A stretch of DNA of 60,033 bases from NCBI GenBank assembly GCA_902785605.1, contig CACZZL010000011.1, positions 1 to 60,033 of the forward strand. The letters are read 5' to 3'. Below are positions 5,444-54,350 of this stretch, in pieces. How positions within the stretch are numbered: the first letter of the stretch is position 1; every line of letters begins with the position of its first letter. The notes beneath the pieces were generated by a model, which saw nothing but the letters and a program-made list of their open reading frames with translations, was not told the origin of the DNA and made no database searches. Source of the stretch: an uncultured Bacteroidales bacterium (lineage in GTDB: Bacteria > Bacteroidota > Bacteroidia > Bacteroidales > Paludibacteraceae). A program made the translations under genes and the position numbers.

Positions 5444-5799
5444 AAAAGTATTTATTGATTGCGTTGGCGCTTCTTCTTTCGCCTCTCGCCATTAGCCTTT
5501 CGCCTTTATCGGCAAAGACCGATAAGCAAACTGTGGTGTTGTCGTGCGATCTGCATTGTCAGGGATGCTGCGACAAGATCATGAAGAACATCGCGTATGA
5601 GAAAGGGGTGAAGGACATCGTGTGCGACCTGAAGACGAAGACGGTCACCGTGACGTTTGACGCACAGAAGACGGACGTGGAGACCTTGCTTAAAGCGTTT
5701 GAGAAGATCGGCAAACCGGCTACCGTAAAAGCGCTGCCGGCTCCCGAGAAAGAGGCCCCGGCTCCGCAGACCGATGCGAATACCGGTGCGTCGTACTAA
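5440..5799 (+). CDS. Exported heavy-metal-associated (HMA) domain protein
   Basis: A 119-residue protein overlapping the feoB stop by ATGA. A signal peptide (MKKYLLIALALLL to about residue 25) precedes an HMA fold at about residues 30-95 with the metal-binding CxxC in DLHCQGCCDKI. A Pro/Ala/Glu-rich tail follows (PAPEKEAPAP). It probably binds a soft metal ion in the periplasm; its place directly after feoB suggests a role in metal handling. The signal peptide is partly encoded by a 5 x 7-bp tandem array (5476-5510). Confidence 0.88.
   Translation: MKKYLLIALALLLSPLAISLSPLSAKTDKQTVVLSCDLHCQGCCDKIMKNIAYEKGVKDIVCDLKTKTVTVTFDAQKTDVETLLKAFEKIGKPATVKALPAPEKEAPAPQTDANTGASY
5476..5510. repeat. Five 7-bp units within a signal peptide
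   Basis: Five adjoining heptamers close to CTTTCGC. They encode the LSPLAISLSPLSA part of the HMA protein signal peptide. Confidence 0.75.
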
Positions 5800-5801
5800 G
5801 C

Positions 5802-6581
5802 ATGAAGAGTCCCGAGCAAATAGAGACGGAGCGAGTCCGGGCACGGTTGACGAAGAAGTTCCACAAGGCCTGTGCCGACTACGGGCTGATCGCTGACGGC
5901 GATCGTATCTTGATTGGTCTGAGCGGCGGCAAGGACAGTCTGGCGCTGGTGGAACTGTTAGGGCGCCGGTCGCAGATCTACAAACCACGTTTTGAGGTGA
6001 CAGCGCTCCATGTGCGGGTCAAAGAACGTGCCTATCAGACCGATCTCAGTTACCTGGAGTCGTTCTGCGCCGAAGCGAAAGTGCCGCTGTTGGTTCGTGA
6101 TGTAGAGATAGGAGAGAAACCGGAAATCTCCAATCTCCAATCTCCAATCTCCAATACGCGAAGCGTCAACCCGTGTTTTCTCTGTTCGTGGTACCGGCGC
6201 AAAGCCCTGTTCAATGTGGCACAGGAGTTAGGGTGTAACAAGATCGCGTTCGGGCATCACCGCGACGATATCATGGAGACCCTGCTGATGAACCTCATCT
6301 ATCAGGGTGCGTTCGCGACCATGCCACCGCTGCTGCAATTAGACAAGATGCCGCTGCAGATCATTCGTCCCTTGTGCCTGATTGACGAAGCGGAACTGGT
6401 GCATTATGCCGCGCTGAGCGGATACGAGAAACAAACCAAACTGTGCCCGTTCGAGCACGTCAGCTCACGTGAGAAAGTGAAAGGACTGCTGGCGCAGATC
6501 AAGGAGCTCAATCCCGAAGCGGTCGATTCTATGTACGGCGCAATGACAAATATTAAAACAGAGTATTTACCAAAATTATGA
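5802..6581 (+). CDS. ttcA: TtcA-like PP-loop ATPase (tRNA 2-thiolation family)
   Basis: A 259-residue cytoplasmic enzyme of the TtcA/TtuA family. The PP-loop ILIGLSGGKDSLAL binds ATP; CFLCSWYRRKALF supplies the CxxC of the Fe-S or thiolation centre, and GHHRDDIMETLL is the conserved downstream motif. A third Cys lies in TKLCPFEH. It likely adds sulphur to a tRNA base, cytidine 32 in E. coli TtcA. A stretch EISNLQSPISNTRS just before the CxxC is encoded by a 7-bp tandem repeat (6125-6159) and looks like an insertion relative to the family. It starts 2 bases after the HMA gene and overlaps the next gene by 4. Confidence 0.85.
   Translation: MKSPEQIETERVRARLTKKFHKACADYGLIADGDRILIGLSGGKDSLALVELLGRRSQIYKPRFEVTALHVRVKERAYQTDLSYLESFCAEAKVPLLVRDVEIGEKPEISNLQSPISNTRSVNPCFLCSWYRRKALFNVAQELGCNKIAFGHHRDDIMETLLMNLIYQGAFATMPPLLQLDKMPLQIIRPLCLIDEAELVHYAALSGYEKQTKLCPFEHVSSREKVKGLLAQIKELNPEAVDSMYGAMTNIKTEYLPKL
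6125..6159. repeat. 7-bp tandem array inside the ttcA frame
   Basis: Four perfect copies of AATCTCC (6125-6152) and a fifth partial copy (AATACGC). Read in successive frames they give the residues ISNLQSPISN just before the CxxC motif. Confidence 0.9.
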
Positions 6582-6949
6582 ATGCATTTTATACCATATT
6601 GTTATTATTGGCGTCGAATATCTTCATGACGCTGGCGTGGTACGGTCATTTGAAACTGCAGCAGACCGGTTTCTTTACGAATGCGACCCCGCTTATTTTT
6701 GTGATTCTGCTGTCCTGGGGTATCGCTTTCTTTGAGTACTGCCTGCAGGTTCCGGCTAACCGGATCGGTTTTGAAGGGAACGGCGGACCGTTCACGTTGA
6801 TGCAGCTGAAAGTGATTCAGGAAGTGATCACGCTGCTGGTGTTTGTGGCTTTCTCGGCCGTGGCGTTCCATATGCCGCTGCGTTGGAACCATGCCGTAGC
6901 TTGTATGCTGCTCATCGGTGCTGTGTACTTTGTTTTTGGATTTAAATAA
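6578..6949 (+). CDS. DUF486 small multidrug-like membrane protein
   Basis: A 123-residue protein with four predicted membrane helices (about residues 5-25, 38-55, 78-98, 104-122) and the DUF486 pattern NIFMTLAWYGHLK near the start, then SWGIAFFEYCLQVPANRIG. DUF486 proteins belong to the drug/metabolite transporter clan; substrate unknown. Overlaps the ttcA-like stop by ATGA, so it is translated from the same operon message. Confidence 0.85.
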   Translation: MNAFYTILLLLASNIFMTLAWYGHLKLQQTGFFTNATPLIFVILLSWGIAFFEYCLQVPANRIGFEGNGGPFTLMQLKVIQEVITLLVFVAFSAVAFHMPLRWNHAVACMLLIGAVYFVFGFK

Positions 6950-6950
6950 T

Positions 6951-8512: not shown

Positions 8513-8552
8513 CCAAAAATACACATGTATGTGTAAATTTTGACACAAACGC

Positions 8553-8583
8553 TTGCGTATGTGGAAAAATTATAGTACCTTTG
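8553..8583 (+). promoter_or_regulatory. rmlA: Promoter of rmlA
   Basis: TTGCGTAT (8553-8560), 15-base spacer, TACCTTTG (8576-8583) followed by C. Upstream lies ACACATGTATGTGT (about 8521-8534), two 6-bp inverted arms that might bind a regulator. Confidence 0.85.
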
Positions 8584-8606: not shown

Positions 8607-9476
8607 ATGAAAGGAATTATTTTAGCCGGAGGCAGTGCAACGCGTTTGTACCCCTTGAGCAAAGCGATCAGTAAACAGATCATGCCGGTTTATGACAAAC
8701 CGATGATCTATTATCCTCTCAGTACATTGATGTTAGCGGGTATCCGTGAAGTGCTGATCATCAGTACCCCGCGTGACCTGCCGATGTTCGAAGAGTTGTT
8801 AGGCGACGGTAGTCGAATCGGTATGACGCTGCGTTACAAAGTGCAGTTGGTACCCAACGGTCTGGCACAGGCTTTTGTGCTGGGACGTGAGTTCCTGAAC
8901 GGCGAGCCGGGCTGTCTGATCTTAGGCGATAACATGTTCTACGGCCAGCACTTCAGCGGCATGCTCAAAGAGGCGGTTGAGTCGGTTAAAGACGGTGGTG
9001 CGTGTGTGTTCGGATACGAAGTGGCCGATCCGCGTGCGTACGGTGTTGTGGAGTTTGACAAGGACGGTAAGGTGTTGAGCCTGGAGGAGAAACCGGCGCA
9101 GCCGAAGAGTAACTATGCCGTACCGGGACTCTATTTCTACGACGAGACCGTGTGTGAGAAAGCAGCGAATCTGCAACCCAGCGCTCGTGGCGAATACGAG
9201 ATCACGGACCTCAATAAGTTGTACCTGAACGAAGGACGACTCAAAGTCAAACTGTTCAGCCGCGGCTTCGCATGGCTCGACACGGGTAACTGCGACAGCC
9301 TGTTGGAAGCCGGTAATTTCATTGCTACCATTCAGAACCGTCAGGGGCTGTACGTGAGCTGCATCGAGGAGATCGCATGGCGTAACGGCTGGATATCTAC
9401 CGAGCAGATGGCCGCGCTGGGTAAGGAGATGAAAACGAACTACGGTCGCTATCTGGAGAGGCTGGCAGCAAGGTAA
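8607..9476 (+). CDS. rmlA: Glucose-1-phosphate thymidylyltransferase
   Basis: A 289-residue nucleotidyltransferase that makes dTDP-glucose, the first step towards dTDP-rhamnose and related sugars. ATG 8607 gives [18 protein letters not shown], with the nucleotide-binding signature, then [19 protein letters not shown] and LGDNMFYG, and [16 protein letters not shown] near the end, as in RmlA. Length is standard. It is transcribed from its own promoter (8553-8583) and followed by a heptamer array rather than other rml genes. Confidence 0.95.
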
Positions 9477-9477
9477 T

Positions 9478-9540
9478 TGAAAAATGAAAAATGAAAAATG
9501 AAAAGTGAAAAATGAAAAGTGAAAAATGAGAAGGGAGAAG
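9478..9540. repeat. 7-bp tandem array between rmlA and the hybrid regulator
   Basis: Seven copies of TGAAAAA/TGAAAAG (9478-9526) followed by two decayed units. The ATG of the next gene (9526) is formed by the array. Confidence 0.92.
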
Positions 9541-12500
9541 ATACATAGTCTGCTGTTGAGAGGATTGATCGTCCTTTCATCTTTCATCTTTTATCTTTCA
9601 CCTTCCTCGGCGCATGAGCAGTACATCACACGTCATTATTCCATCAAGGACGGTTTGAGCCAAAACACCGTAATGGCGATTCTGCAGGATCGTCAGGGTT
9701 TTATGTGGTTCGGTACCTGGGACGGTTTGAACCGTTTTGACGGCTACACGTTCAAGGTCTATAAGGCGATGAACAACGGCGTGGCGGCTCATGTCAACAA
9801 CCGCGTTGTGTGGATCTACGAAGACGAGGCGGAGCAGATATGGTGGGCTACGTACGATGGTCACTACTACCGTTTGGACGCCACACGCCGAACCACCACC
9901 GAGCAGCGTCAGGAGGACCTGCCGGCCGCGATGATCGGGCAAATGGAAGAGGCGACGGCCAATACGAAGATAGATGGGAACGGTATCATTTGGCAGGCGG
10001 ATGACACGTACGGCATCCTACGCTACCGCGACGGACAGTGGAAACGCTTCACCCCGTCTTTGGACAGCCGTTATGCAGGACGACTCCGGGAACATTTCTT
10101 CCTGCTGGTAGATGCGAAAGGACGTACCTGGGTCAACCCGACCGGTGGCGGATGGAGCTATTACGATTATGACAAAGACGAATTGGTTAGTCCGTTCAAA
10201 GGACTGACGAACATGATCCATACGGCCTATATTGACCGCGAAGGGCAGATGTGGATCGCTACCTACGACGGCGGTGTGGATTGTGTGAACATGGATCCTG
10301 TGCCGTATGAACTGCATGACTTGAAGGGCAATGACGGAAACGGAGAAGTGCGTGCTTTCTGTCAGGACAAGAATGGTCAAGTTGATCCTTTTCTTCATTA
10401 CTATTGCGCCTTGGAGAGCCGTCACGGACGTTTGTTCGGAACCAAAGGCAACGGTCTGTTGCTCAACGGCAAACGTATCCCGACTTCGCATAACGATATC
10501 TACGATATCGAAGAGGATGAGGATGGTACGCTGTATGTGGCTACGTACGGCGGAGGTGTGAATATCCTTCGCTGGAATGAGAAAACCAAAACCTGGTCCG
10601 CTCCCGAAGTGGTAGAAGACGGCATGAAAGTGCGGGACATCGAGTTGGTGAACGGCATTCTGTGGTGCGGTACGACGACGGGTATCCTGCGTGTTAATCC
10701 GGCTACCGGCGAGAGCACCGTGTTACCCAGTTACGACATCCGCGCCGTCAGTTATTGCCAAGACCGCATATGGTTCGGTTCGTTCGGCGGCGGTTTGATG
10801 GCCATTGATCCCCAAGATACGGCGTTGACCGTTGTCTATGCGGAGACGTTCCACGATATCATCCTGAGCATGGCGGCAGACAGCACGAACCTGTGGTTCT
10901 GCTCGGAGTTGGATATCGCACAGTTGAACCTGGAGACCGGTATGCTCTATTACTACAACGCGTTGGACGGAGAACCGAACTCGTACTTCACCGAAGCAGA
11001 AGCGGTAATAACACCCGAAGGGAAGATATTGTTCGGCTACTCGAACGGTTATGTGTCCATGGACCCGTCCCTCATTCGTCGCTCCAAAGCGGTGCCTCCG
11101 GTTTATATCACCCGGATCGAGACGCAGGACGGCGAGATGGAAGGGGATACGGTCACGGTTGATAACGGCTCTACGATCACCATCGACTATGCGGCTATTG
11201 ATTATATCGGAGCGGACAAGATCGTCTATTACTACAAGATGGACGGTGTGGATAAGGAGTGGCGGTATGTCCAAGCACAGCGGCAGGTGACATACAGTAA
11301 CTTACGTCACGGCACATATGTATTCCATGTGCGCTCTACCAACCGCGAAGGAGGCGAAGTGGACAATGAGAAACAAGTGGTGATCATCGTTCAGAACCCC
11401 GTGTGGCTCAGTTGGTGGGCCATCCTGTTGTACATACTGGGTATAGTAGTTATCGTCGTTTTGGCCGTCTATGCGATCGGAATCTACAACGGTTTGCGGC
11501 AACGTGTGAAAGTGGAGCAGCAGGTGACGGACATCAAACTGCGATTCTTTACCAATATCAGCCATGAGTTACGTACCCCGCTGACGCTCATTGCCGCACC
11601 TGTGGAGAACATCCTGCAGACCGAGCATATCACTCCGAGTGTGCGCAGTCAACTGGAGATCGTGCTCAGTAACAGCCAACGTATGCTCCGTATGGTGAAC
11701 CAGTTGCTGGAGTTCCGTAAGGTGCAGAACCAGAAGATGAAACTCAAAGTGCAGCAGACGCTGCTCAGCGAACTAGTCGAAGAGACGAGTGCGAACTTCA
11801 AGAAAGAGGCGTACGACAAACATATTCAATTCGAGATTATCAATAACGCCTCCGATTCGACCGTATGGGTCGATCGCGGTCGTGTGGATACGATCCTGTG
11901 GAACCTGCTGAGTAATGCGTTCAAGTTCACGGCGGCCGGCAAGGCGATCCGTGTCATTGTGGCAGACAAACCGGGCTTTGTGACGCTGACAGTACAGGAC
12001 GAGGGTATCGGTATCCCGCCGGAGAAACGCAGTGTGCTGTTTGAGCGTTTCTCGAGTAACAATGAACTGAACAACACCGGTCTCACCGGTACCGGTATCG
12101 GTATGAACCTCACCAAGGAACTGGTGGACCTGCATCACGGTTACATCGATGTGGACAGTGAAGTAGGCAAAGGAACGACTATCACCGTGCTGTTCCATAC
12201 CGGCAAGGAGCATTTCGATTCGGATGTGGAGTTTATTGCCGATGACCTCTCTTCGGCACAGATGGCCACCCCGACTACGTTCGCAGACAAGTTGGAACAA
12301 CTGGAGCAAGAGCAGCAGGAGAGTCATCAGACGATTTTGGTAGTGGATGACAACCAAGACATGCGCCAGTTCCTCGCCGGTATCTTCAATAAGGACTATA
12401 ACGTCGAGACCGCGGAAGACGGCGAGCAGGCCAAGCAGATCGTGACTACCAAACCGATTAATATCGTGGTGACCGATCTGATGATGCCGCATGTGGACGG

Positions 12501-22585: not shown

Positions 22586-22586
22586 T

Positions 22587-22628
22587 AATCGAAAATCTTA
22601 ATTTTGAAATCCTAATTCCTAAATCGAT
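22587..22628. repeat. Six 7-bp units between rsfS and ftsH
   Basis: Units close to AATCCTA at 22587, 22594, 22601, 22608, 22615 and 22622 fill the whole 45-base gap. Confidence 0.7.
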
Positions 22629-22630
22629 GA

Positions 22631-23790: not shown

Positions 23791-24330
23791 GTGTTTTTCC
23801 AATTATTTTGGACATATCTCAAAATAGGCACCTTCACCCTTGGTGGAGGATATGCCATGTTACCCCTTATTCAGCGTGAAGTAGTGGACCGCAGGGGATG
23901 GATTGATGAGCAGGAGTTTCTCAATATGATCGCCCTGGCGCAAGCCGCTCCGGGGCTCATTGCGGTCAATTCTGCCATCTTCATCGGTTGGCGCATCGGC
24001 GGTTGGAAAGGGGTGTGCGGTGCGGTATTGGGTGCAGTGCTGCCGTCTTTTTTGATTATATTGGGGATCGCCATGGTGTTTGCGGATTGGAAAGAACTAC
24101 CGGCTGTAGAAGCGGTATTCAAAGGTATTCGTCCTGCAGTAGTGGCGCTGATTGCGGCTCCTTTGTTCAAATTAGCCAAGTCTGCGAAGATCAGTTGGCT
24201 TACTGCACTCATTCCGATAGTAGCAGCTTTGCTCATTTGGCTGCTTGGAGTCAATCCCGTCTGGGTCATTGTGGCAACCATCGTGATTACACTTATCGTC
24301 GTGGATATAGTAGAAAGGAGGCGCAAATGA
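23791..24330 (+). CDS. chrA: Chromate transporter, N-terminal half-size protein
   Basis: A 179-residue CHR-family membrane protein. The start is GTG at 23791, right after the udk stop; MFFQLFWTYLKIGTFTLGGGYAMLPLIQREVVD is the classic CHR N-terminus and AQAAPGLIAVNSAIFIGWRIGG follows. Bacteroidetes commonly have two short CHR proteins acting together as one antiporter; this one overlaps the second by 4 bases. The substrate may be chromate or another oxyanion. Confidence 0.92.
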   Translation: MFFQLFWTYLKIGTFTLGGGYAMLPLIQREVVDRRGWIDEQEFLNMIALAQAAPGLIAVNSAIFIGWRIGGWKGVCGAVLGAVLPSFLIILGIAMVFADWKELPAVEAVFKGIRPAVVALIAAPLFKLAKSAKISWLTALIPIVAALLIWLLGVNPVWVIVATIVITLIVVDIVERRRK

Positions 24331-24923
24331 TCTATCTGCAATTGTTCCTTTCGTTCTTCAAGATTGGTCTCTTCGGTTTCGGAGGGGGCTTGGCGATCTT
24401 GTCGCTGATTCAGATGGAGGTGGAGCAGAACGGCTGGATGACGCAGCAGGAGTTTGTGGATATTGTGGCGGTGAGTCAGATTACACCCGGTCCGATTGGT
24501 ATCAACTGCGCTACGTATGTCGGCTATACGGTCGGAGGTATATGGGGTAGTGTGCTGGCGACGTCAGCTATTGTGCTACCGAGCTTGATCATCATGCTCA
24601 GTATTTGCAAAGCCTATTTCTGGCTTAATCGCCGGTTTAAAGGAAATCCGTATTTTGAGCAAACGCTCCGTATGTTACGTTTTACGGTATTGGGTTTGAT
24701 TGCTTCGGCGGCACTGCTGCTGATGAAACCCACCACGTTCATCGATTCAACCAGTTGGATCATCTTCGGTATAGTCGCATTTCTCACGATTTCACCGGAG
24801 ATTTTTAGAAAGAAAGAAGGGAATAAACTTTCAACTTTCAACTCTCAACTTTCAACTTTCTTGAGTCACCCGATTCTCCTAATTGTCCTTGCCGGAGTAG
24901 CCGGTTATCTCATCTACCGCTAA
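24327..24923 (+). CDS. chrA: Chromate transporter, second half-size protein
   Basis: A 198-residue CHR-family partner of the gene before (ATGA overlap). MIYLQLFLSFFKIGLFGFGGGLAILSLIQ and SQITPGPIGINCATYVGY are the family signature. Before the last membrane helix the loop KLSTFNSQLSTFLS is encoded by a 5 x 7-bp array (24827-24861), so the last helix is joined by a repeat-derived loop. Only 7 bases separate its stop from the convergent helicase stop. Confidence 0.92.
   Translation: MIYLQLFLSFFKIGLFGFGGGLAILSLIQMEVEQNGWMTQQEFVDIVAVSQITPGPIGINCATYVGYTVGGIWGSVLATSAIVLPSLIIMLSICKAYFWLNRRFKGNPYFEQTLRMLRFTVLGLIASAALLLMKPTTFIDSTSWIIFGIVAFLTISPEIFRKKEGNKLSTFNSQLSTFLSHPILLIVLAGVAGYLIYR
24827..24861. 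repeat. Five 7-bp units inside the second chrA gene
   Basis: ACTTTCA at 24827, 24834 and 24848, ACTCTCA at 24841 and ACTTTCT at 24855: exactly 35 bp in register. Confidence 0.92.
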
Positions 24924-24926
24924 CGA

Positions 24927-24947
24927 ATTCTCAATTCTCAATTCTTT
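24927..24947. repeat. Three 7-bp units at a convergent gene junction
   Basis: ATTCTCA twice and ATTCTTT. The stop codon of the minus-strand helicase (24931-24933) and its last residues (ERIEN) lie in the array. Confidence 0.8.
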
Positions 24948-27168
24948 CCAGTTTGGCGTGTGTGAGTAGCAGCGTCTTGGTGCCTTGTGTGTCGAACGCT
25001 ATCTCTATCTTGTCGTTTTCTGTCACTTCATCGCGATAAATGCGGTTGACAGTCCCTTGTCCGAACACACGGTGACTCACGCGGTCACCTGCTTTCCAGT
25101 CGGACTCCAGTTGTGTGGTCGGACCGGTTTTGGGTGCGACTGGAGTGGAGAAAACAGGTTTCCTGGGAAAACTGGGAATACCAGGTTCACTAGGACGACT
25201 ATACTGATGGCTGGCGGCTGATTGCTGAAGGCTAAAATACTGCCTGTCTATATCTTTTAAGAACCGGCTTGGTGAGGCAAACGAGAATGAACCGTTGCGG
25301 AAACGTTGCTTAGCGAACGATAGGTGACATTGTTCCATCGCCCTCGTGACGGCTACGTATAACAACCGCCGTTCTTCTTCTATCTCTTGCGGGCGCTCGG
25401 CGAACTGCGACGGGAATAGGTTTTCTTCCATTCCCACGATGAAAACAACAGGAAACTCCAATCCCTTGGCAGCATGTACAGTCATCAGAGTCACACGTTC
25501 GGTGGTATCCTCTAAGTGCTCGTCCTGATCGGTCAGCAGACTCACCTCGCTCAAGAAATCGCTGATGGGGGTGTAGTCGATACCTTCGTTCTGCCGCTGT
25601 GCTACGAACTCACGAATGGCGTTCAGTAACTCTTGTACGTTCTGCGCACGGTCAATACCCTCTTGTGTCAGATCTGTTGCCAAGGCAGTCATCACACCGG
25701 AAGTGCGGAGCACTGTTTCGGCAAATTGGAACGCGTCCATCGTATCGCTCTGCTCATGAAAAGTATCGATGAGACCGGCGAAAGTTTGCATTTTCTTCTT
25801 CGTTCCGGCATTAACTTCCAGACCTGTCTCTTCGGGGGCACGCATCACATCCAGATAACTCCGGTGATGCTCGGTTGCGTTCACCGCTACCTTCTTCATC
25901 GTCGTCTCTCCGATGCCACGTCCCGGGAAGCCGACGATGCGCAGCAGGGCTTCGTTGTCACGCCCGTTCACTGCCAAGCGGAAATAGCCTAAGGCATCTT
26001 TGATCTCCTTGCGCTGATAGAACGATGTGCCGCCGTAGATGCGGTAGGGGATATTGAGTTTACGCAACTCGCCTTCTATTACCCGGCTTTGTGCATTGGT
26101 GCGGTATAATACTGCGAATGAGTTGTATCCTTTGTGCCGCATTTTCTGAATATGCGTCGCCACACCAAGTGCCTCCGTTCGGTCGTCCATGTACGCCTGT
26201 AGTGTTAGCGGTTGACCTTGCTCTTTTTTTGAATAAACGGTTTTCTCTATTTGGTTGATGTTTTTGTGAATGAGCGAATTGGCAGCATTGACGATGTTCT
26301 GCGTGGAGCGGTAGTTCTGCTCCAATTTGAATAAACGCGCTTGCGGATAGACTTGTCTGAAATTGAGAATGTTACGAATGTCTGCACCGCGGAATGAGTA
26401 TATCGACTGCGCGTCATCACCTACTACGCAGATGTTGTTCTGCGGTTCGGCAAACCGTTTAACAAGTAGGAACTGGATATAGTTCGTGTCCTGATACTCA
26501 TCGACCAAGATATACTGAAACTGCTGTTGGTACCGTTCGCGCACCTCGGGGCTGATGTTCAATAGACGGAGCATGTTAATCAACAGATCATCAAAGTCCA
26601 TTGCATTGGTCGCTTTTAGCCGCGCTTGGTATAGTGCATAAACTGTAGGCAGTTCGTACAGCCGCATCTCGCGATCCTCACGCAATAATTGGCTATTTTT
26701 TTCGTATTCATCGGGAGAAATGCCTCGGTTCTTGGCTATGGAGATACGGCTATATACCGCTGCCGGTTTGTAGATTTTTTCGTCTAATCCGTGCTCTTTG
26801 CAAATCGCTTTAAGAACCGATTTGGTATCGGTGGTGTCATAAATACTGAAATCGCGTGTGAAACCTAACAAATCTGCGTACGGGCGTATGAGACGCGTGC
26901 ACACGCTATGAAACGTACCCATCACAAGGTAGCGAGCATCTTCGCCCACCAACTTCTGAATGCGCTCTTTCATCTCCCGTGCCGCTTTGTTGGTGAACGT
27001 TAACGCCATGATGCGCCCAGCCGGCACACCTTGTGACAGCAGGTATGCGACGCGGTATGTCAGCACGCGTGTCTTACCGGATCCGGCTCCCGCCACAATG
27101 AGCGAAGCTCCTTCGGTATATGTCACCGCCTCTCGCTGAGACGGATTTAATCCTTCCAAAAAATCCAT
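24931..27168 (-). CDS. pcrA: PcrA/UvrD-type superfamily 1 DNA helicase
   Basis: A 745-residue 3'-5' helicase for nucleotide excision repair and replication-conflict relief. ATG 27168 gives MDFLEGLNPSQREAV; the upstream extension to 27327 crosses the promoter. Motifs: AGAGSGKTRVLTYR, ILVDEYQDTNYIQ, VVGDDAQSIYSFRGAD, TVHAAKGLEFPVVF, YVAVTRA. The tail AGDRVSHRVFGQGTV is the Tudor-like domain that binds RNA polymerase in PcrA. The linker between helicase core and this domain is largely made of a 9-bp and a 7-bp tandem array (25154-25239), plausible because that linker is disordered in the family. Confidence 0.95.
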   Translation of the reverse strand: MDFLEGLNPSQREAVTYTEGASLIVAGAGSGKTRVLTYRVAYLLSQGVPAGRIMALTFTNKAAREMKERIQKLVGEDARYLVMGTFHSVCTRLIRPYADLLGFTRDFSIYDTTDTKSVLKAICKEHGLDEKIYKPAAVYSRISIAKNRGISPDEYEKNSQLLREDREMRLYELPTVYALYQARLKATNAMDFDDLLINMLRLLNISPEVRERYQQQFQYILVDEYQDTNYIQFLLVKRFAEPQNNICVVGDDAQSIYSFRGADIRNILNFRQVYPQARLFKLEQNYRSTQNIVNAANSLIHKNINQIEKTVYSKKEQGQPLTLQAYMDDRTEALGVATHIQKMRHKGYNSFAVLYRTNAQSRVIEGELRKLNIPYRIYGGTSFYQRKEIKDALGYFRLAVNGRDNEALLRIVGFPGRGIGETTMKKVAVNATEHHRSYLDVMRAPEETGLEVNAGTKKKMQTFAGLIDTFHEQSDTMDAFQFAETVLRTSGVMTALATDLTQEGIDRAQNVQELLNAIREFVAQRQNEGIDYTPISDFLSEVSLLTDQDEHLEDTTERVTLMTVHAAKGLEFPVVFIVGMEENLFPSQFAERPQEIEEERRLLYVAVTRAMEQCHLSFAKQRFRNGSFSFASPSRFLKDIDRQYFSLQQSAASHQYSRPSEPGIPSFPRKPVFSTPVAPKTGPTTQLESDWKAGDRVSHRVFGQGTVNRIYRDEVTENDKIEIAFDTQGTKTLLLTHAKLERIEN
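25154..25198. repeat. Five 9-bp CAGG/CTGG/CTAGG-type units in the pcrA linker
   Basis: 9-mers begin at 25154, 25163, 25172, 25181 and 25190. On the minus strand they encode SEPGIPSFPRKP with a 3-residue period. Confidence 0.85.
25205..25239. repeat. 7-bp units next to the 9-bp array in pcrA
   Basis: TGATGGC, TGGCGGC, TGATTGC, TGAAGGC and a decayed fifth unit, in register. They encode FSLQQSAASHQY just before the 9-bp-derived segment. Confidence 0.8.
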
Positions 27169-40486: not shown

Positions 40487-42826
40487 TCCCAAATGAATAC
40501 GGAAACGCATCGCCCATGCTACTTCGGGCGAGAGCGACCAAACAGAGTATAGGTCGGCAACACGTAGAATGTTGCCGATTCCTATTCCTATCTCGGAATA
40601 GAACTGGTGCCCGCTTGTGTCTCCGGCCGATAGCGTACAAACCGAATGACTCCGGTAGCCGTAAGCAATCTTGGCTTCTACCAGCTCGCGCAAGTGCAAC
40701 CAGCGGATACCGGGAATGAGGTTAAAGAGAATGCCTTGTCCGTTCCACTCGGTCTGCAGTGTGACGTATTTGTCTGCCATCAATTGGTAGCCGTGCAGCA
40801 AAGTGAAACGGTACGGGTCGTAGGCATATCCTTGGTTGGCGGATGCCTGCCAGAGCATCGTCTGCGGCACGTGCCCGAAGATAGCACCCGCTTGCAGCGC
40901 ATATGTCAGGGTGCCACCCATGCCGAGGTTAGCGTGCTGGGTGAGCATGAGACGTAAGTGCGCGTAGAGTGCACTTTGCGTGTTGGCGCTTTGCCAGTGA
41001 CCGGCTTCCAGTCCGAGGTACAGAACGGGGTACTTGTGGGAATAAGCATAACGGCGCATGAAGAAACCGTCGTATTTGCGTTCGCCCCAGCTTAGACGTG
41101 CGATGAACGACATGGACTGATAGGAGTAGGGATCAATAGGCATGGTGTAAGGAGCGTCCCGATTCCAACCTGCGCGAAGATAGGTCTGCGTCTCCAGATG
41201 AGGAGTCCAATCGGCGAACCAACGGAATTGAATCTGTCGTTGGCGCATGGCGGTGTTGACGCACAGCGAGTCACGGTGCAACGCCTCGAAAGCATATGCC
41301 GTGAAATCGAAGTTTCCCCAACCCATGGAGTTCTCCCGCAACAGACGGTCAAAATCATCTACCTCCGACCAAACATAGCGGTCGTTGTACTCCAGTTGCA
41401 AGGTGTTTTTCCTCGGTGTGGGAAGATTAATGGAGATTCGTCCCATACCTTTTGGACTGCGGTCCTTGAATCCGTAGCCTACGGAGGCTTCGAGGCTGAT
41501 CACTTCGGAGAAACGCTCGTTGGTGCGGAACGGTAAACCGATATGTACTCCTTCGTGCTTGTTGACCTGTAGTATCTCTTCGATATGTCCTATATCGACC
41601 GGTGTGCCGGTAGGTATATATCCCGTGGTGGCAATCGTAGCAATCCATTTGGCCGTGCGGATAATAGGCAGACTGTCCAAGGTGGCGAATACGGAGTCTG
41701 TTGGCGGAATAGGAGTATTAGATTCCCTAGGAATACCAGGTATCCTAGGCTGACTCGTGTTATTCTTTAGCGAGGTTGTCAGCAATAGGGTCGGGAAGAC
41801 CGTGCCGGCTTGCTCGGATTTGATAGCGATATCCAAGATGGCGGAGACATGTTCGTCTGCGATAGAACCGTCTTCGTTCAGCGTCTGCGACACATGTAAG
41901 GTGTTGACGTAGTTGACAGCTACTTCCGCCGGTACATAGGCACTGATAGAACGAAGCGCAAACGTAGTGGTATCAATCACCATCTGACCGTTAAAGGTGG
42001 CGTAGAACGAGTTTTTCGTCCGAAAGTCTATTCGAACGTGATTAGAGATAGTATCGTCTTCGACGATATAATAGCGATAATATAGGTTGCCTCCGCTGGC
42101 CAAGGGCGAGAGGAACGCGTGCCCCATGAGGGAGACGGAGTTGGCATAAAAATTGAGGTTGCCTTCCCCGCCCAAGAGGGACGAGTAGTCCGTGGACGAG
42201 AGAATGAGCGCCTGAGTGCGTTGATCATTAGCAGGGATCATCTCCTGACCGGAGAGTCGGAACGACTGCGTCTCGCGGTATAAGGGCAGGATATAGGTAG
42301 AGTCTTCCTGTGCGATCATACCTGACTGCAGACTGCGCCAAAGTGCTCGACGCAGGTGCCGTTTCTGGATATGTGAGACATAGAGTGTCTGTTCGCGTTG
42401 CGCCACAAAAGACTGTTCAGGATGCAGTGTGCGGTCGTTGTCCGGACGGTGTGCCCGTACCTGACGCAGCAGTTCGAGTGCAGGGTTCTCATTAGGCGCC
42501 ACGACAATCTCCGTCAGTGTGGTCGTCTTTTCCCGCATCGCTACCTGCAGACCCGCCAAGGCTCCGGGCGTGATCTCAAAACGCTGAGTGTAGTAGCCGA
42601 CCGCAGAGAAGACCAGTTGCGCCTTGCCGGTCATATCGACTCGTAAGGCGTATGAACCGTTCTCATCGGAACTGGTACCTATCTTTGTGCCCCGGAAATG
42701 AATATTCACATTCGGAATAGCTTCTCCCGTCGTCTCGTTAACCACTTCGCCGACAATGATGGTTTCCACTGCCTGCAAAGGCAATGAAAGCAACAATAGT
42801 CCTATAAGCCATAACCTGTAACCCAT
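40481..42826 (-). CDS. DUF5686 outer-membrane protein with carboxypeptidase-like domain
   Basis: A 781-residue protein: signal peptide (MGYRLWLIGLLLLSLPLQA), a CarboxypepD_reg-like beta-sandwich (GEVVNETTGEAIPNVNIHFRGTKIGTSSDENGSYAL) and a long DUF5686 part rich in amphipathic strands, ending in a hydrophobic C-terminus as in outer-membrane barrels. Role unknown. The start codon and first residues come from a heptamer array (42804-42838), and the linker QPRIPGIPRESNTPIPP from a 9-bp array (41710-41754). Its 3' end overlaps the convergent GH97 gene by 6 bases. Confidence 0.87.
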   Translation of the reverse strand: MGYRLWLIGLLLLSLPLQAVETIIVGEVVNETTGEAIPNVNIHFRGTKIGTSSDENGSYALRVDMTGKAQLVFSAVGYYTQRFEITPGALAGLQVAMREKTTTLTEIVVAPNENPALELLRQVRAHRPDNDRTLHPEQSFVAQREQTLYVSHIQKRHLRRALWRSLQSGMIAQEDSTYILPLYRETQSFRLSGQEMIPANDQRTQALILSSTDYSSLLGGEGNLNFYANSVSLMGHAFLSPLASGGNLYYRYYIVEDDTISNHVRIDFRTKNSFYATFNGQMVIDTTTFALRSISAYVPAEVAVNYVNTLHVSQTLNEDGSIADEHVSAILDIAIKSEQAGTVFPTLLLTTSLKNNTSQPRIPGIPRESNTPIPPTDSVFATLDSLPIIRTAKWIATIATTGYIPTGTPVDIGHIEEILQVNKHEGVHIGLPFRTNERFSEVISLEASVGYGFKDRSPKGMGRISINLPTPRKNTLQLEYNDRYVWSEVDDFDRLLRENSMGWGNFDFTAYAFEALHRDSLCVNTAMRQRQIQFRWFADWTPHLETQTYLRAGWNRDAPYTMPIDPYSYQSMSFIARLSWGERKYDGFFMRRYAYSHKYPVLYLGLEAGHWQSANTQSALYAHLRLMLTQHANLGMGGTLTYALQAGAIFGHVPQTMLWQASANQGYAYDPYRFTLLHGYQLMADKYVTLQTEWNGQGILFNLIPGIRWLHLRELVEAKIAYGYRSHSVCTLSAGDTSGHQFYSEIGIGIGNILRVADLYSVWSLSPEVAWAMRFRIHLGL
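41710..41754. repeat. Five 9-bp TAGG-type units inside the DUF5686 gene
   Basis: 9-mers begin at 41710, 41719, 41728, 41737 and 41746 (TAGGA, TAGAT, TAGGA, CAGGT, TAGGC). In frame on the minus strand: PRI, PGI, PRE, SNT, PIP. Confidence 0.88.
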
Positions 42827-42838
42827 AACCTTTAACCT
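42804..42838. repeat. Five 7-bp units spanning xerD stop and DUF5686 start
   Basis: Heptamers close to ATAACCT at 42804, 42811, 42818, 42825 and 42832. The xerD stop (42832-42834) and the next start codon (42824-42826) both fall in the array. On the minus strand the unit is GGTTATN, the same family as in ddl (53487-53521). Confidence 0.9.
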
Positions 42839-43749
42839 TTATTGGCAGGATGACATTGGAGGATAGCCTGACGCAGGTCTTGTACGTCAAGGTGGGTGTA
42901 AATCTCGGTGGTAGCAAGGTCTTCGTGTCCGAGCAGTTGCTGAATGACGCGCAGGTCGGCTCCGTTCTGGAGTAGGTGGGTAGCAAACGAGTGCCGCAGG
43001 GTGTGCGGAGAGACGGTTTTGGTGATGCCGGCCGCTTCGCATAGACGGCGCACGATAGTGAAGACCATGGCCCTGGTCATCGGACGACCGTAGCGGTTGA
43101 CGAACGCAAAGTCCTTAGACTCTGGCTTAAGCGGCCACGTAGCACGCTCTTGCAGCCAATAACCGAACCATTCTTCCGCTACCGGAGAGAGGGGAACCAG
43201 ACGTTGCTTGGAGCCTTTGCCCTCGATGAGCATATAGTGTTCGTTGAGGTAGATCTTGCTCAGTTGCAGATTTACCAATTCGCTTACCCGCAGTCCGCTG
43301 CCGTATAGCATCTCCATCATCGCACGGTTGCGATGTCCTTCGTTGCTGCTGAGGTCGATTGCCGCCATCATGCGGTTGATCTCATCGAGCGTCAGCACGG
43401 TAGGCAAGTGCTTGGATTTCTTGGGTCCTTCAAGCAGTTCAGACGGGTCTTGTTCTATATAGTCTTTGTAGAGCAGAAAACGGAACCATGAGTGCAAGCC
43501 GGCGAGTACGCGGGCTTGAGTAGCCTCAGAGCGGATGTCTTTGAATTGCTGAAAGATGAACTCCTGCAGCGCATCAAAATCCAGTTTAACATAGTCTAAG
43601 GGTTTATTGTTTTTGTCCACATGCTCTTTGCAGTACGCACGCAGTTTCTCCAAATCCATCTCATAGCCTTCGACCGTGTTGGGCGAATAACCGCGTTCGA
43701 GACGGAGCCAGGTGTGGTACTCTTTGAGCAGTTGCTCTTCCGATGTCAT
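42832..43749 (-). CDS. xerD: Tyrosine recombinase XerD
   Basis: A 305-residue site-specific recombinase that resolves chromosome dimers at dif with XerC. ATG 43749 overlaps the upstream stop by ATGA. N-terminal SAM-like core-binding domain (EYHTWLRLERGYSPNTVEGYEMDL); catalytic residues in GSGLRVSELVNL (Arg), SPHTLRHSFATHLLQ (His-x-x-Arg), QLLGHEDLATTEIYTH (His and Tyr). Single-copy housekeeping type rather than an integrase, given its place among core genes. Confidence 0.95.
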   Translation of the reverse strand: MTSEEQLLKEYHTWLRLERGYSPNTVEGYEMDLEKLRAYCKEHVDKNNKPLDYVKLDFDALQEFIFQQFKDIRSEATQARVLAGLHSWFRFLLYKDYIEQDPSELLEGPKKSKHLPTVLTLDEINRMMAAIDLSSNEGHRNRAMMEMLYGSGLRVSELVNLQLSKIYLNEHYMLIEGKGSKQRLVPLSPVAEEWFGYWLQERATWPLKPESKDFAFVNRYGRPMTRAMVFTIVRRLCEAAGITKTVSPHTLRHSFATHLLQNGADLRVIQQLLGHEDLATTEIYTHLDVQDLRQAILQCHPANKG

Positions 43750-44291
43750 TTTTTTACCCATGGGATCAAAGCACCGTTGAAGGAACAAGTATAGGTGGCT
43801 TTCCCGCCGTAGTTGTTGCGGTAGTAGAGGGTGAAGAGCAGACTGTCGTTGCGATAAACGAACGCACCGGAGTCCAGCAGTTGAATGGACTGCAGTTTGC
43901 TGTCCTCCACATAGAGCAGGTACATACCATGCGGTGTACCTTCGTAGTCGCGCCCGGGCAGGAACGTGTAAGGGGCAGGTGATTGGCTGTTGGTCAGAGA
44001 ATGGTATTCACCTTCGGTTAAGAGACTGTCCGGCACGAAGATATCGGTGAGGCAAAGGTTGTATCCGGTGCCTCTCATACGTTGCGTCGAGTCCAGTTCC
44101 AATCCTTGGGAGTAGATGTCCAATCCGACGACGGCATAAGGTACGGAGTCATAACAATGTCCGTAGATCTGCTCATAGGCCAGCGTGTACTCTTTCGGGA
44201 ACCCACGGTAATACGAGGGCTGCGAAGGTGTACAGGCAGCAAAAAAGACCGCAGTCAGAATGAGGATATATAAAAAGCTTTTATCTTTCAT
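43746..44291 (-). CDS. Uncharacterised lipoprotein
   Basis: A 181-residue protein with signal MKDKSFLYILILTAVFFAAC (lipidated Cys at 20). The rest is Tyr-, Ser- and Gly-rich (SYYRGFPKEYTLAYEQIYGH, TLYYRNNYGGKATYTCS), likely beta-sheet. I do not recognise a family. The start codon and first residues are encoded by the heptamer array 44283-44359. It is translated with xerD (4-base overlap). Confidence 0.7.
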   Translation of the reverse strand: MKDKSFLYILILTAVFFAACTPSQPSYYRGFPKEYTLAYEQIYGHCYDSVPYAVVGLDIYSQGLELDSTQRMRGTGYNLCLTDIFVPDSLLTEGEYHSLTNSQSPAPYTFLPGRDYEGTPHGMYLLYVEDSKLQSIQLLDSGAFVYRNDSLLFTLYYRNNYGGKATYTCSFNGALIPWVKK

Positions 44292-44359
44292 CTTTCATCT
44301 TTCATCTTTCATCTTTCATCTTTCATCTTTCATCTTTCATCTTTCATCTTTCATCTTGC
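44283..44359. repeat. Eleven 7-bp units between two minus-strand genes
   Basis: Ten perfect copies of ATCTTTC (44283-44352) and one ATCTTGC. The array holds the last codons and stop of the permease gene (44337) and the start codon of the lipoprotein gene (44289-44291). Confidence 0.95.
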
Positions 44360-47727: not shown

Positions 47728-48152
47728 TAGAAGGGCAGATCACTTGTGCCGTCACCGGCGGAAGCGTCAAACGGATCTACATTGGTCGGAGCAGCCTCTA
47801 CCGGCGCAGCAGCCGGAGCTGCTTGCATCGGAGCGGCAGCAGGAATAGGCGCAGCAGCCGGTTGAACGGCAGCCTGGGTGGTGTCACCCTGTTGGATGCG
47901 CCATGCGCGGATAGAGGTGTACCAACGACCGTTGAACTCACGGCTCTCGATGTCGAAACTAACCGTTACGAGTTGATCGATGTCGCAGGGGTTCTGTTTG
48001 ATACGCTCCTCACCGAATACCTCGAAATGCACTTTGCGAGGATACTGATCCAGCGTCTCTAATACGTACGGCTGCACTTTCCACGGGTTGCCGTTACGGC
48101 CAACACCTTCCTGCAAAGGCAGAACTTGAATTATCTTACCTACTACTTCCAT
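47727..48152 (-). CDS. DUF3127 protein with SSB-like C-terminal tip
   Basis: A 141-residue protein. Residues 1-90 match DUF3127 as I recall it (VQPYVLETLDQYPRKVHFEVFGE, VSFDIESREFNGRWYTSIRAW), a predicted OB-fold. Then comes a low-complexity Ala/Pro tail and the ending DGTSDLPF, which resembles the acidic DDDIPF tip by which SSB recruits partners. It may bind single-stranded DNA, but this is inference. Sits between pgk and a phosphoesterase and near recO. Confidence 0.88.
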   Translation of the reverse strand: MEVVGKIIQVLPLQEGVGRNGNPWKVQPYVLETLDQYPRKVHFEVFGEERIKQNPCDIDQLVTVSFDIESREFNGRWYTSIRAWRIQQGDTTQAAVQPAAAPIPAAAPMQAAPAAAPVEAAPTNVDPFDASAGDGTSDLPF

Positions 48153-48155
48153 TTC

Positions 48156-48190
48156 AATTCTTAATTTTTAATTTTTAATTCTTAATTACC
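48156..48190. repeat. Five 7-bp units between pgk and the DUF3127 gene
   Basis: AATTCTT, AATTTTT, AATTTTT, AATTCTT and AATTACC. The pgk stop (48186-48188) is in the fifth unit. Confidence 0.88.
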
Positions 48191-52238: not shown

Positions 52239-52244
52239 AAAACT

Positions 52245-52273
52245 ATTTACGATTTAATCATTTACCATTTTTT
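52245..52273. repeat. 7-8 bp repeat before the conserved protein gene
   Basis: ATTTACG, ATTTAATC, ATTTACC, ATTTTTT across the gap between two minus-strand genes. Confidence 0.6.
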
Positions 52274-52277
52274 TTAT

Positions 52278-53246: not shown

Positions 53247-53250
53247 CTGT

Positions 53251-53290
53251 ATTTACGATTTACATATTTACGATTTACGATTGATTTACG
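53251..53290. repeat. ATTTACG tandem repeat between ddl and the prenyl synthase
   Basis: ATTTACG at 53251, 53266, 53273 and 53284, with one 8-bp unit and one decayed unit. A second array with AATCGTC units occupies 53317-53360 and holds the ddl stop codon (53355-53357). The two fill almost the whole 108-base gap. Confidence 0.75.
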
Positions 53291-53354
53291 AGTGAGTTCA
53301 ATTGTACAATTTATAAAATCGTCAATAACTCGTACCTCGTCAATCGTCCAATCG

Positions 53355-54350
53355 TCAATTAAATTTGTTCTCGATGATATCTGTCAGCACATCCTTGATG
53401 TCGAGTCCGGCAGCACGTACCTGCTGCGGGATGAACGATGTCGGCGTCATACCCGGTGTGGTATTCACTTCGAGTAACATAAGTTTGGTATCCTGTAACC
53501 CGTCACCCGTAACCGGTAACCCTTTAATAATCCAATCGACCCGGATGATACCCTGTGCGCCGATGATGTCGTACAGACGCAGCGTCTCGGCTTGTATCTT
53601 ATCGCGCAGCGCATCGGGGATACGGGCCGGCGTGATCTCGTCCACTTGGCCTTTGTACTTGGCATCGTAGTCGAAGAACTCGTTGTGCGTCACTACCTCC
53701 GTGATCGGGAAAGCGACCGCTTTGGTCTTGGTCTTGTACACGCCGCAGGTCACTTCGGTGCCTTGCATGTACGACTCGCAGATCACCTCGTCGCCCTCTT
53801 GGAACGCACGCTCGATAGCCGGGTAGATGCCTTCGACGGTCTTCACCTTGGTGCAACCGAAAGATGAACCGCCTACGTTCGATTTGATGAAACACGGGAG
53901 TCCCAAGGTCTCGGCGATCTTCGGCGCGTTTGGCAGTTTCTGTCCGGCACGGAGCATCATACTATTCGCGATGTGGAAACCGAAGTAGGAGAGGTAGTGG
54001 TTGCAGGCGTACTTATTGAACGTCAGCGCTGCGGCTAACACACCGCAACAACTATACGGCAGACCGATCATGTCCAGATAGCCCTGCAGAATACCGTTCT
54101 CTCCCGGTGTACCGTGAATCGTGATATAGGCAAAATCGAAGGTGTGCTTCACGCCCCCGCGCGTAAAAGAAAAATCGTTCTTATCAATCGGACACCCGTC
54201 TTCGGTGTGCCAGTTCTTACCGTCAAAAACCACGATGGTCACATCGTAGCGCTCCTTGTCCATGAAGGAGTAGATTCCTGCTGCCGACCGCAGTGATACC
54301 TCATGTTCGCTGCTGTCTCCTCCTGCAATAATTGCTATGTTTCGTTTCAT
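53355..54350 (-). CDS. ddl: D-alanine-D-alanine ligase
   Basis: A 331-residue ATP-grasp enzyme that makes the D-Ala-D-Ala end of peptidoglycan precursors. IAIIAGGDSSEHEVSLRSA is the first motif, then FAYITIHGTPGENGILQGYL, LPCFIKSNVGGSSFGCTKV (glycine-rich loop), EVICESYMQGTEVTCGV and LLEVNTTPGMTPTSFIPQQ. Between VDWIIKG and LLEVNT the residues LPVTGDGLQDT are encoded by a 5 x 7-bp array (53487-53521), extending a hairpin that is short in relatives. The stop is also in a repeat. Confidence 0.95.
   Translation of the reverse strand: MKRNIAIIAGGDSSEHEVSLRSAAGIYSFMDKERYDVTIVVFDGKNWHTEDGCPIDKNDFSFTRGGVKHTFDFAYITIHGTPGENGILQGYLDMIGLPYSCCGVLAAALTFNKYACNHYLSYFGFHIANSMMLRAGQKLPNAPKIAETLGLPCFIKSNVGGSSFGCTKVKTVEGIYPAIERAFQEGDEVICESYMQGTEVTCGVYKTKTKAVAFPITEVVTHNEFFDYDAKYKGQVDEITPARIPDALRDKIQAETLRLYDIIGAQGIIRVDWIIKGLPVTGDGLQDTKLMLLEVNTTPGMTPTSFIPQQVRAAGLDIKDVLTDIIENKFN
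53487..53521. repeat. Five 7-bp units inside ddl
   Basis: On the plus strand units close to CGTAACC at 53487, 53494, 53501, 53508 and 53515, exactly 35 bp. On the minus strand the unit is GGTTACN, matching the array at 42804. Confidence 0.92.

Follow-up and report, generated by a model that had tools for sequence, protein, structure and literature searches.

Short heptamer arrays recur between genes and inside some proteins of a gut Paludibacteraceae bacterium and its relatives

What makes tandem arrays of 7-nt units recur, at similar length and with different sequence, along one contig of an uncultured Bacteroidales bacterium? The window, the whole stretch of DNA analysed here, comprises 60,033 nucleotides of contig CACZZL010000011.1 (assembly GCA_902785605.1; Paludibacteraceae), and an earlier note had named 14 such places in it. 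TRF reported a period-7 array at 12 of these and missed 22587 and 52245, which are too degenerate for it at score 30 and where the heptads were recognised by eye. Exact lag runs of at least 12 occur five times at lag 7 in the window and are absent at every other lag from 2 to 13.

On the plus strand, a degenerate TAAATCG array (1351..1384; TRF 4.7 copies, 71%) lies between two plus-strand reading frames, a CTTTCGC array (5476..5507; TRF 4.6 copies) occupies the N-terminal stretch at the start of a heavy-metal-associated-domain gene (5440-5799; Pfam PF00403), and a perfect AATCTCC array (6125..6155; 4.4 copies by TRF, also seen in the lag runs) falls in a loop of a PP-loop ATPase gene (5802-6581; Pfam PF01171), which we take to be TtcA-like. 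A TGAAAAA array (9478..9540; TRF 7.4 copies over 9478-9529) begins 1 nt past a stop codon ending at 9476, and its inverted partner, a CTTTCAT array (9574..9604; TRF 4.4 copies), lies in the N-terminal region of a hybrid two-component gene (Pfam) read from 9526. Further along, an AACTTTC array (24826..24860; TRF 5.0 copies) is found in a chromate-transporter gene (24327-24923; Pfam PF02417). On the minus strand, a 45-nt diverged heptad filler (22586..22630; by eye, not TRF) makes up the whole spacer between rsfS and ftsH (Pfam RsfS PF02410 and FtsH domains), an AATTCTC array (24926..24945; TRF 2.9 copies) overlaps the 3' end of a UvrD-family helicase gene (24931-27168, minus strand; Pfam PF00580), and a GGTTATG-type array (42801..42838), for which TRF gives period 7 with 5.4 copies at 70% and also period 14 at 86%, covers both the end of a tyrosine-recombinase gene (42832-43761; Pfam PF00589) and the beginning of the gene that follows. 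A GATGAAA array (44278..44357; TRF 11.4 copies, with a lag run of 68) sits at the junction of two minus-strand genes, an AATTAAG/AATTAAA array (48152..48187; TRF) forms the spacer after the phosphoglycerate kinase gene (Pfam PF00162), and a degenerate heptad spacer (52239..52277; by eye, not found by TRF) separates two further minus-strand genes. Finally, a TCGTAAA-type array (53250..53282; TRF 53251-53282) lies upstream of a gene read from 53246, and a GGTTACG/GGTGACG array (53488..53521; TRF 53495-53522) lies inside a D-Ala-D-Ala ligase gene (53355-54350; Pfam PF07478 and PF01820).

We surveyed 860,033 bp of the same genome, taken from contigs met earlier in the analysis and tiled from base 1, by comparing lags 2 to 13 with dinucleotide shuffles as control. 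There were 154 arrays at lag 7, as against 7 at lag 6, 13 at lag 8, 12 at lag 9, 3 at lag 10 and 14 at lag 11, and no lag other than 7 exceeded 14. The shuffles gave no array at lag 7, so that tandem 7-nt units above chance, a mark of long simple sequence repeats (LSSR), are evident here. The recurrence of period 7 asserted by the earlier note is borne out, and its comparison with periods 6 and 8 clearly falls in favour of 7. Arrays were present in 15 of 20 stretches from the genus. In the family sample (20 stretches, 4 fully masked), 4 stretches came from genomes with a prior search match, and these genomes supplied 4 of the 11 arrays; in the class and phylum sample (16 stretches, 5 from prior-match genomes), one such genome, G270, supplied 2 of the 3 arrays. 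Loci L071-L120, which came from the two prior searches, were left out of the analysis. Heptamer arrays are a real, genome-wide phenomenon, and in this gut bacterium and its relatives they occupy some 30 bases at a time, both in gaps between genes and within certain proteins.

Rounded to whole units, the arrays comprised 17 with three units, 66 with four, 45 with five, 14 with six and 12 with more. Their length mode is 29–32 bp, equal to 4 to 4.5 units, and the peak remains after correction for detection. The fixed number of five proposed in the earlier note is not supported, and read to the letter the excess at five by which it was to be judged is lacking, with four commoner than five; a preference for four is also that of the Xanthomonas and Nostoc heptamers. 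According to a simple gene caller, on which the split is based, 66 of the 154 arrays lie in called coding sequences and 88 outside, most of the latter between codirectional genes. The length mode is alike in both sets, which indicates that spacer function alone does not set the length. In 19 of the 66 coding arrays the consensus unit holds a sense stop codon, so some of these calls may be wrong, or variant units may keep the frame open.

The 154 arrays have 58 canonical units, the commonest being TTAAAAA (23 arrays), TTACGGG (13), TGAAAAA (12), TTGAAAG (11) and TGAAAGA (10). The identical unit recurs at many loci, and the units have a degenerate pattern in common (3.39 log-likelihood per array versus 2.2–2.3 in column-permuted controls). 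The earlier description of a unit that differs by locus and is not one dispersed repeat agrees with the 58 canonical units but has to make room for recurring units and their common pattern, and the idea that the unit sequence is free is not supported. Nor do the arrays resemble one dispersed mobile repeat of the REP or MITE kind, as no core sequence common to all loci was met. Many arrays are mixed in unit sequence. Unit difference at separations of 1, 2 and 3 was 0.118, 0.131 and 0.145 in this genome, neighbours being slightly more alike, and 0.118, 0.135 and 0.131 in the genus sample, with no rise from 2 to 3; a measure of deviation by unit position, biased by tie-breaking, was excluded. Were plain slippage the cause, length counts should fall off and new units should be nearly identical; the length peak that survives correction, the many mixed arrays and the weak gradient between near and far units are at odds with it.

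Sister species were compared using one genome per species, and in six comparisons 19 of 59 arrays were dropped for want of alignable flanks (11, 1, 2, 5, 0 and 0). Length changes were divisible by 7 in 7 of 22 cases (binomial p 0.03, with some loci counted from both sides) and not in the other 15; whole-unit change between relatives, another LSSR mark, is thus seen here at that level. Changes of 7 or 14 nt were found in G059 at loci 18546 (41 vs 34), 14135 (29 vs 22) and 44793 (41 vs 27), and a change of 7 nt in G064 at locus 85530 (40 vs 47). At G406 locus 25376, one substitution is present in three of four units with length constant (41=41). Several arrays are unchanged or almost so in a sister species, and by eye the shorter or non-array allele retains unit-like sequence at G406 59754 and G409 3179. 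In many congeners the PP-loop protein carries differing units in the same loop (AATCTCC, AATCACC, AATCACA, AATCATA, AATCGAA); between our genome and L066 this gene is one unit apart, and a nearby 1-nt indel restores the frame (by eye). Identity between sisters was below 0.8 for 8 of 18 arrays versus 7 of 32 plain intergenic gaps, and a change of at least 6 nt was found in 8 of 18 versus 8 of 32. Array turnover is only modestly faster than that of plain gaps, which weighs against the reading we favour below; the difference from random 31-mers is large (20/40 versus 14/240, both directions counted and some loci twice).

The rsfS-ftsH junction was followed across 80 named relatives. Fillers of 15 nt or more number 56, of which 26 have period 7 and a further 7 have period 8; 30 have identity below 0.60 at lag 7, and 23 of these also at lag 8. 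Nine disjoint sister pairs have fillers of at least 17 nt, with identity of at least 0.94 in four and at most 0.66 in five, such that wholly different sequence stands at the same site in sister species. Fillers that are either nearly the same or quite different resemble discrete replacement, an observation that runs against a slippage reading.

On balance, we lean toward a mutational process, unusually active in this Paludibacteraceae clade, through which the arrays arise and evolve in concert. Replication or repair would give rise to them by slippage of strands or by template switching over short distances, with 7 nt as the strongly preferred step and 8 and 11 used less often. Each gain or loss would involve one or two units, which would allow a variant unit to spread along an array of four or five, and sometimes an array would disappear or be replaced in its entirety. 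Arrays would survive where harm is small, between codirectional genes or in tolerant loops or N-termini of proteins, with selection probably acting as the sorter; between codirectional genes an array would in many cases make up the spacer, and in many cases provide the stop codon of the gene upstream. Expansion balanced by contraction may account for the cap at about 35 bp. The polymerase or repair process with a 7-bp step raised in the earlier note fits the period, the likeness of lengths inside and outside coding sequences, the 7 of 22 changes and the unit change at constant length.

A dedicated process could instead write about 30 nt of filler DNA in one step, to be overwritten by later events, either by iterative priming with a poorly processive polymerase or by copying short blocks from other arrays; we regard this as a tentative possibility on the unlikely side. 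It accords with the length peak near 30 bp in called coding sequences and gaps alike, with the all-or-none filler differences between sisters whose flanks are 92–97% identical, with the inverted halves seen by eye in junction fillers L237, L243 and L244, and with the inversion of 4 of 14 close array pairs. Intergenic loci also have ordered blocks in common, in 22 pairs versus 8.1 at k=27 and 30 pairs versus 13.3 at k=24 (each 0/60 unit-order shuffles). However, block sharing with at least three variant positions shows no excess (3 versus 2.4; 28/60 shuffles), is weak at k=20 (4/60) and is absent at k=17 among all arrays, and convergence accounts for part of it, five AATTAAA-type arrays in called coding sequences being near copies that keep the frame open (by eye). 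Block copying between loci therefore has a mixed outcome, and local slippage alone leaves the shared unit pattern and the ordered multi-unit blocks unexplained. Direct 7- and 14-nt changes also count against one-step writing, as does the lack of a candidate enzyme, with RVT_1 not found in G000 and Ku in 0/19 genomes. In its fullest form, which we consider rather doubtful, a genome-wide writing process and not ordinary slippage would lay 7-periodic (sometimes 8-, 10- or 11-periodic) blocks of about 30 nt at gene junctions and tolerant coding sites, overwritten wholesale within a few percent of divergence, with block and degenerate unit as a polymerase footprint. Operon spacers and protein loops would then be re-authored while their flanks stay nearly identical.

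The arrays might also be functional, as A- or purine-rich 5' leaders for Bacteroidota translation start or as three-frame stop arrays separating genes, which we think quite unlikely. Among 75 codirectional arrays of this genome, 57 start at most 4 nt after the upstream stop, 49 finish at most 14 nt from the next start and 41 do both; the corresponding figures for 27 genus arrays are 20, 14 and 11. The purine strand is the sense strand in 76 of 102 codirectional cases (p 7e-7). After arrays with a gap outside 1-149 nt were left out (10 of 75 and 3 of 27), a sense-strand stop was present in the consensus unit of 53 of 65 junction arrays, versus 43.4 (maximum 52) with letters permuted, but the genus count of 21 of 24 (permutation mean 18.7, maximum 23) is not above all permutations. 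The last 7 nt of the upstream gene match the array in register (0.53 versus 0.25–0.34 at other shifts, with 5 of the 65 arrays left out), and an array that runs over the end of a gene provides the next stop itself, which could alone explain the register. Against a functional role stand the 66 coding arrays with their shared length mode and the 18 of 80 relatives with only 2-5 nt between rsfS and ftsH. Phase variation, in which slippage in contingency repeats would switch genes, is very improbable: repeats near gene starts tune expression elsewhere (MacGregor 2015, PMC4679880, introduction), yet in the window the arrays adjoin the housekeeping genes rsfS, ftsH, pgk and ddl, and the several arrays left nearly unchanged in sister species suggest little switching. 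G-quadruplex formation, proposed as the source of the four-unit mode in Xanthomonas and Nostoc, can hardly be credited here. GGGTTAC-like units do occur, and the G3+L1-7 pattern is matched by 4 of 154 arrays, but GGG and CCC are both absent from 127 of 154, where the mode is unchanged (54 four-unit, 41 five-unit); as a general cause in this genome it fails, with a G-tract of at least three in each of four units in only those 4 of 154.

Presence tests gave no support to a reverse-transcriptase origin, to Ku-dependent end joining, to loss of MutS or to one Y-family polymerase. RVT_1 occurs in 3 of 20 genomes (G015, G064 and array-poor G056) and was not found in G000, which is 83.5% complete, and Ku was found in none of 19. 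MutS is present in 18 of 19 and missing in array-rich but 71% complete G059, and IMS, for a single Y-family polymerase, is present in 18 of 20 and missing in G056 and G011, both array-poor. G075 and G406 match at the same coordinates in the RVT_1 and IMS searches and seem to be one genome. These presence tests are weak because MAGs are incomplete and 'array-poor' (G056, G029, G011, G084, G007, G077) means 0 or 1 array in one 17-20 kb stretch each.

Cyanobacterial STRR heptamers have period 7, are dispersed and are built from few fixed units; the present arrays are alike in period and dispersal but draw on a broad vocabulary. In Calothrix, the STRR comprise three heptanucleotides, as given in PMC4692102. 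The Xanthomonas and Nostoc arrays of GGGAATC or GGGGA(C/T)T, as presented by Rehm et al. 2015 (PMC4692102), share with ours period 7, mixed units, the four-unit preference, inverted pairs, a mostly intergenic position with most flanking genes codirectional, and length and sequence that vary strongly between close species. They differ in that the study followed one G-rich unit type per genome, whereas ours have 58 canonical units, mostly lack G-tracts, keep the same mode without them and lie in called coding sequences in 66 of 154 cases. Closer in taxonomy, TAACTGA arrays are described for marine Beggiatoaceae, cyanobacteria and five Bacteroidetes (MacGregor 2015, PMC4679880), with two sets in Paludibacter propionicigenes, so the earlier statement that no Bacteroidales counterpart had been described was too strong. 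According to that account, these heptamers also lie just upstream of start codons, with two to six copies in the BOGUAY genome, and differ between two Cyanothece strains mostly by 7-nt indels, like some of the changes found here; one unit dominates there, unlike here, and TAACTGA is not among our 58 canonical consensus units. Heptanucleotides are the commonest class of LSSR in most genomes (Mrazek et al. 2007, cited in PMC4679880 and PMC4692102), and our arrays resemble these in the over-representation of period 7 and in the polymerase-contact explanation; the density, the length cap and the replacement between sister species set this clade apart from LSSR as described in those two papers.

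Bacterial repeats of this kind are known but lack an explanation, and the arrays are a dense, mostly non-G-rich form of them. For the excess of heptamers in bacteria, an account in terms of polymerase contact length was put forward in 2007 (cited in PMC4679880 and PMC4692102), and the portions of these papers drawn on here contain no direct test of it; this clade offers a test system, in which 860 kb of one genome contain 154 arrays, sister species are numerous and one junction occurs both filled and unfilled. The four-unit mode, ascribed to G-quadruplexes in Xanthomonas, also occurs without G-tracts, and the arrays suggest one way in which operon spacing and protein loops could change quickly, with no sequence relation between old and new.

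An earlier note had named 14 places in the window (G000:C11, 60,033 bp of a draft genome of 2.08 Mb in 28 contigs, 83.5% complete) as carrying heptamer arrays, at least seven of them with close to five units; TRF called a period-7 array at 12 of them and made no call at the other two. A lag scan of the window (lags 2–13) gave exact runs of at least 12 only at lag 7 (n = 5). A tolerant scan of the own-genome sample (the window plus 40 further stretches, 860,033 bp) gave 154 segments with lag 7. Its multiples, lags 14 and 21, gave 104 and 52, and lags 6, 8, 9, 10 and 11 gave 7, 13, 12, 3 and 14, respectively; dinucleotide shuffles gave none at lag 7. In twenty congener stretches (392 kb), lag 7 accounts for 46 segments and lags 6, 8 and 11 for 3, 14 and 15, respectively; lag-7 arrays occur in 15 of the 20. 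A further 20 stretches, taken from the family outside this genus (277 kb of unmasked sequence, four stretches wholly masked), yielded 11 at lag 7, two at lag 9 and one each at lags 6, 8, 11 and 12, and 316 kb from 16 genomes at class and phylum level yielded three lag-7 arrays. Across these four samples the lag-7 density thus falls from the own genome outwards (~179, 117, 40 and 10 per Mb), subject to sampling biases, as 4 of the 20 family stretches and 5 of the 16 class and phylum stretches came from genomes with a match to an array motif. The minor-period classes (8 and 11) are true arrays too, forming separate classes of 22 to about 80 bp in own and congener stretches. An inverted pair of period-8 arrays lies at 1328/1396 of stretch L018, and TRF reported a tandem repeat of 3.7–3.8 copies of a 53–56-bp unit at window positions 54620–54821.

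Own-genome array lengths peak at 29–32 bp (48 of 154), flanked by 23 arrays of 26–28 bp, 27 of 33–35 bp and 10 of 36–39 bp. Because detection declines with shorter arrays (0.85 at 30 bp, 0.74 at 25 bp, 0.29 at 19 bp), the rise toward ~30 bp is partly, not wholly, a detection effect; the drop above 35 bp is not one. Counted in whole units, 17 arrays have three, 66 four, 45 five, 14 six and 12 more, and the length mode is identical within and outside called CDS. Fifty-eight canonical units cover the 154 arrays, the commonest being TTAAAAA (23), TTACGGG (13), TGAAAAA (12), TTGAAAG (11) and TGAAAGA (10). Alignment of the arrays by phase and strand brings out a common degenerate pattern, which on the pyrimidine strand is about T-[AC]-A-N-[CT]-T-[TG] (score per array 3.39 versus 2.2–2.3 with permuted columns). 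This pattern was recovered independently from coding and non-coding arrays and takes a similar form in congeners. Four-unit runs of GTTNAAA were present in 6 of 61 family genomes, and those of GGTTANN in 20 of 198 genomes of the phylum, both counts including the own genome. Three species (L014:18746-18819, the L218 junction, and the G064 ortholog of position 10526 in G059) have a partly palindromic sequence of ~42 bp (CTTAGCCC..GAAGGGCACGATTATTTGACAAGTCAAATTTTGA or a close variant) adjacent to or within heptamer arrays; allowing up to 6 substitutions, the own 860-kb sample contains one copy. At four own-genome places (L036:17685, L037:13667, L037:18482 and L028:13978), GTTGAAA-type arrays are linked with a second run by a bridge that differs from GAAAGAAGTCTTCTAGTTGAAAG by at most 4 substitutions, and similar bridges occur in congeners.

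Heptamer arrays as such are already known. Rehm et al. 2015 (PMC4692102) describe GGGAATC-type arrays, with inverted pairs and strong variation among close species, and tie their preference for four units to G-quadruplexes; MacGregor 2015 (PMC4679880) describes TAACTGA arrays upstream of starts, five Bacteroidetes included; and Mrazek and colleagues 2007, as cited in both, treat heptamers as a common class caused by polymerase contact. Passages of PMC4060949 yielded nothing on Paludibacteraceae, and among the matches listed from the open-licence literature none deals with such arrays in this family. In contrast to the GGGAATC-type arrays, the own genome shows the mode without G-tracts: 127 of 154 arrays contain neither GGG nor CCC, their mode is still four to five units, and quadruplexes are therefore ruled out as its general reason in this genome.

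By a simple gene caller, 66 of the 154 arrays fall in CDS and 88 outside. Those with two neighbours lie between codirectional genes in 75 of 87 cases, as do 250 of the 330 gaps that are 30 nt or longer (p 0.02 for the difference). Codirectional arrays start at most 4 nt past the upstream stop in 57 of 75 and end at most 14 nt from the next start in 49 (both in 41); the corresponding genus values are 20, 14 and 11 of 27. Among codirectional arrays, the purine strand is the sense strand in 54 of the 75 from the own genome and in 22 of the 27 from congeners (pooled p 7e-7). The last 7 nt of the upstream gene agree with the array at 0.53 in register versus 0.25–0.34 at other shifts (60 own arrays), and at 0.49 versus 0.28–0.40 in the genus (24 arrays); 27 of the 60 own arrays and 4 of the 24 genus arrays have the entire stop codon in register. 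This register shows where arrays lie, not their origin, because an array across a gene end supplies that stop by itself.

Within coding sequence, the array at 6125 occupies a loop of a PP-loop protein that we take to be TtcA-like. Congeners vary at this loop: many have different heptamers there, some have no heptamers, and others have a palindrome-like insert; inserts of the CTCCCTT-AAGGGAG type were seen at L044, L045, L047, L214 and L215. Compared by eye with the L066 gene, the surroundings are kept, the arrays differ by one unit, and a 1-nt indel directly past the array brings the frame back.

The closest named relatives, found via the rsfS gene, are MAGs labelled Paludibacteraceae or Bacteroidales, mostly from ruminant gut compartments where a source is stated (horse faeces for two). 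The rsfS-ftsH gap, read in 80 named loci, measures 2–5 nt in 18, 6–14 nt in 6 and 15–170 nt in 56. Identity reaches 0.60 or more at lag 7 in 26 of these 56 fillers and at lag 8 in a further 7 (shuffled means of 0.4 and 0.5 fillers, respectively). Lag 7 has the highest pooled identity in 20–75-nt fillers (0.55), ahead of lags 14 (0.47) and 8 (0.42), the other lags from 1 to 20 lying at 0.24–0.36. Octamer fillers include L255, L275 and L283. Inverted halves were noted by eye in L237, L243 and L244. Thirteen disjoint pairs had flanks at least 90% identical, though recombination may lie behind part of this high identity; in the 9 with a filler of at least 17 nt on one side, filler identity was at least 0.94 in 4 and at most 0.66 in 5. 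L272 and L276 (flanks 94.5% over 3,357 nt) have heptamer fillers of different units, L253 and L254 fillers of 3 and 32 nt, and L243 and L269 (97.2% over 2,177 aligned nt) long fillers unlike each other.

Array-by-array comparison of three sister pairs (six runs; mean flank identity 94.5–97.6% in five, 91.7% in one) showed some arrays conserved and others altered by 7 or 14 nt. The unit changed at constant length at G406 25376; an array stood opposite an equally long stretch, either a different repeat or non-repetitive sequence, at G064 2286 (47 = 47) and G059 49289 (35 = 35); and arrays were nearly absent from the sister at G408 9488, G064 27605 and G406 59754. A further candidate absence, G407 40748, was rejected as a duplication difference within a longer repeat. 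The shorter or non-array alleles at G406 59754 and G409 3179 keep unit-like sequence, as in-place growth or decay would leave. Identity below 0.8 was found for 20 of 40 arrays versus 14 of 240 random 31-mers, and for 8 of 18 arrays versus 7 of 32 plain intergenic gaps; since this last excess is modest, the fast change is in part a property of gaps generally.

The simplest account of these patterns is slippage or template switching in preferred steps of 7 nt. It leaves unexplained the ~30-bp peak, the mixed units within arrays, their common degenerate pattern, some sharing of ordered blocks and the all-or-none filler differences, and because of these a one-step process that writes whole arrays stays alive as a rival. 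Intergenic arrays share ordered blocks (k=27) in 22 pairs versus 8.1 (0 of 60 shuffles), but the excess disappears once three variant positions are required. Presence tests of candidate enzymes (RVT_1, Ku, MutS, IMS) across the compared genomes gave no lead. We lean somewhat towards slippage or template switching, whereby units within an array would turn over in concert and arrays would be tolerated at gene junctions and in protein loops.
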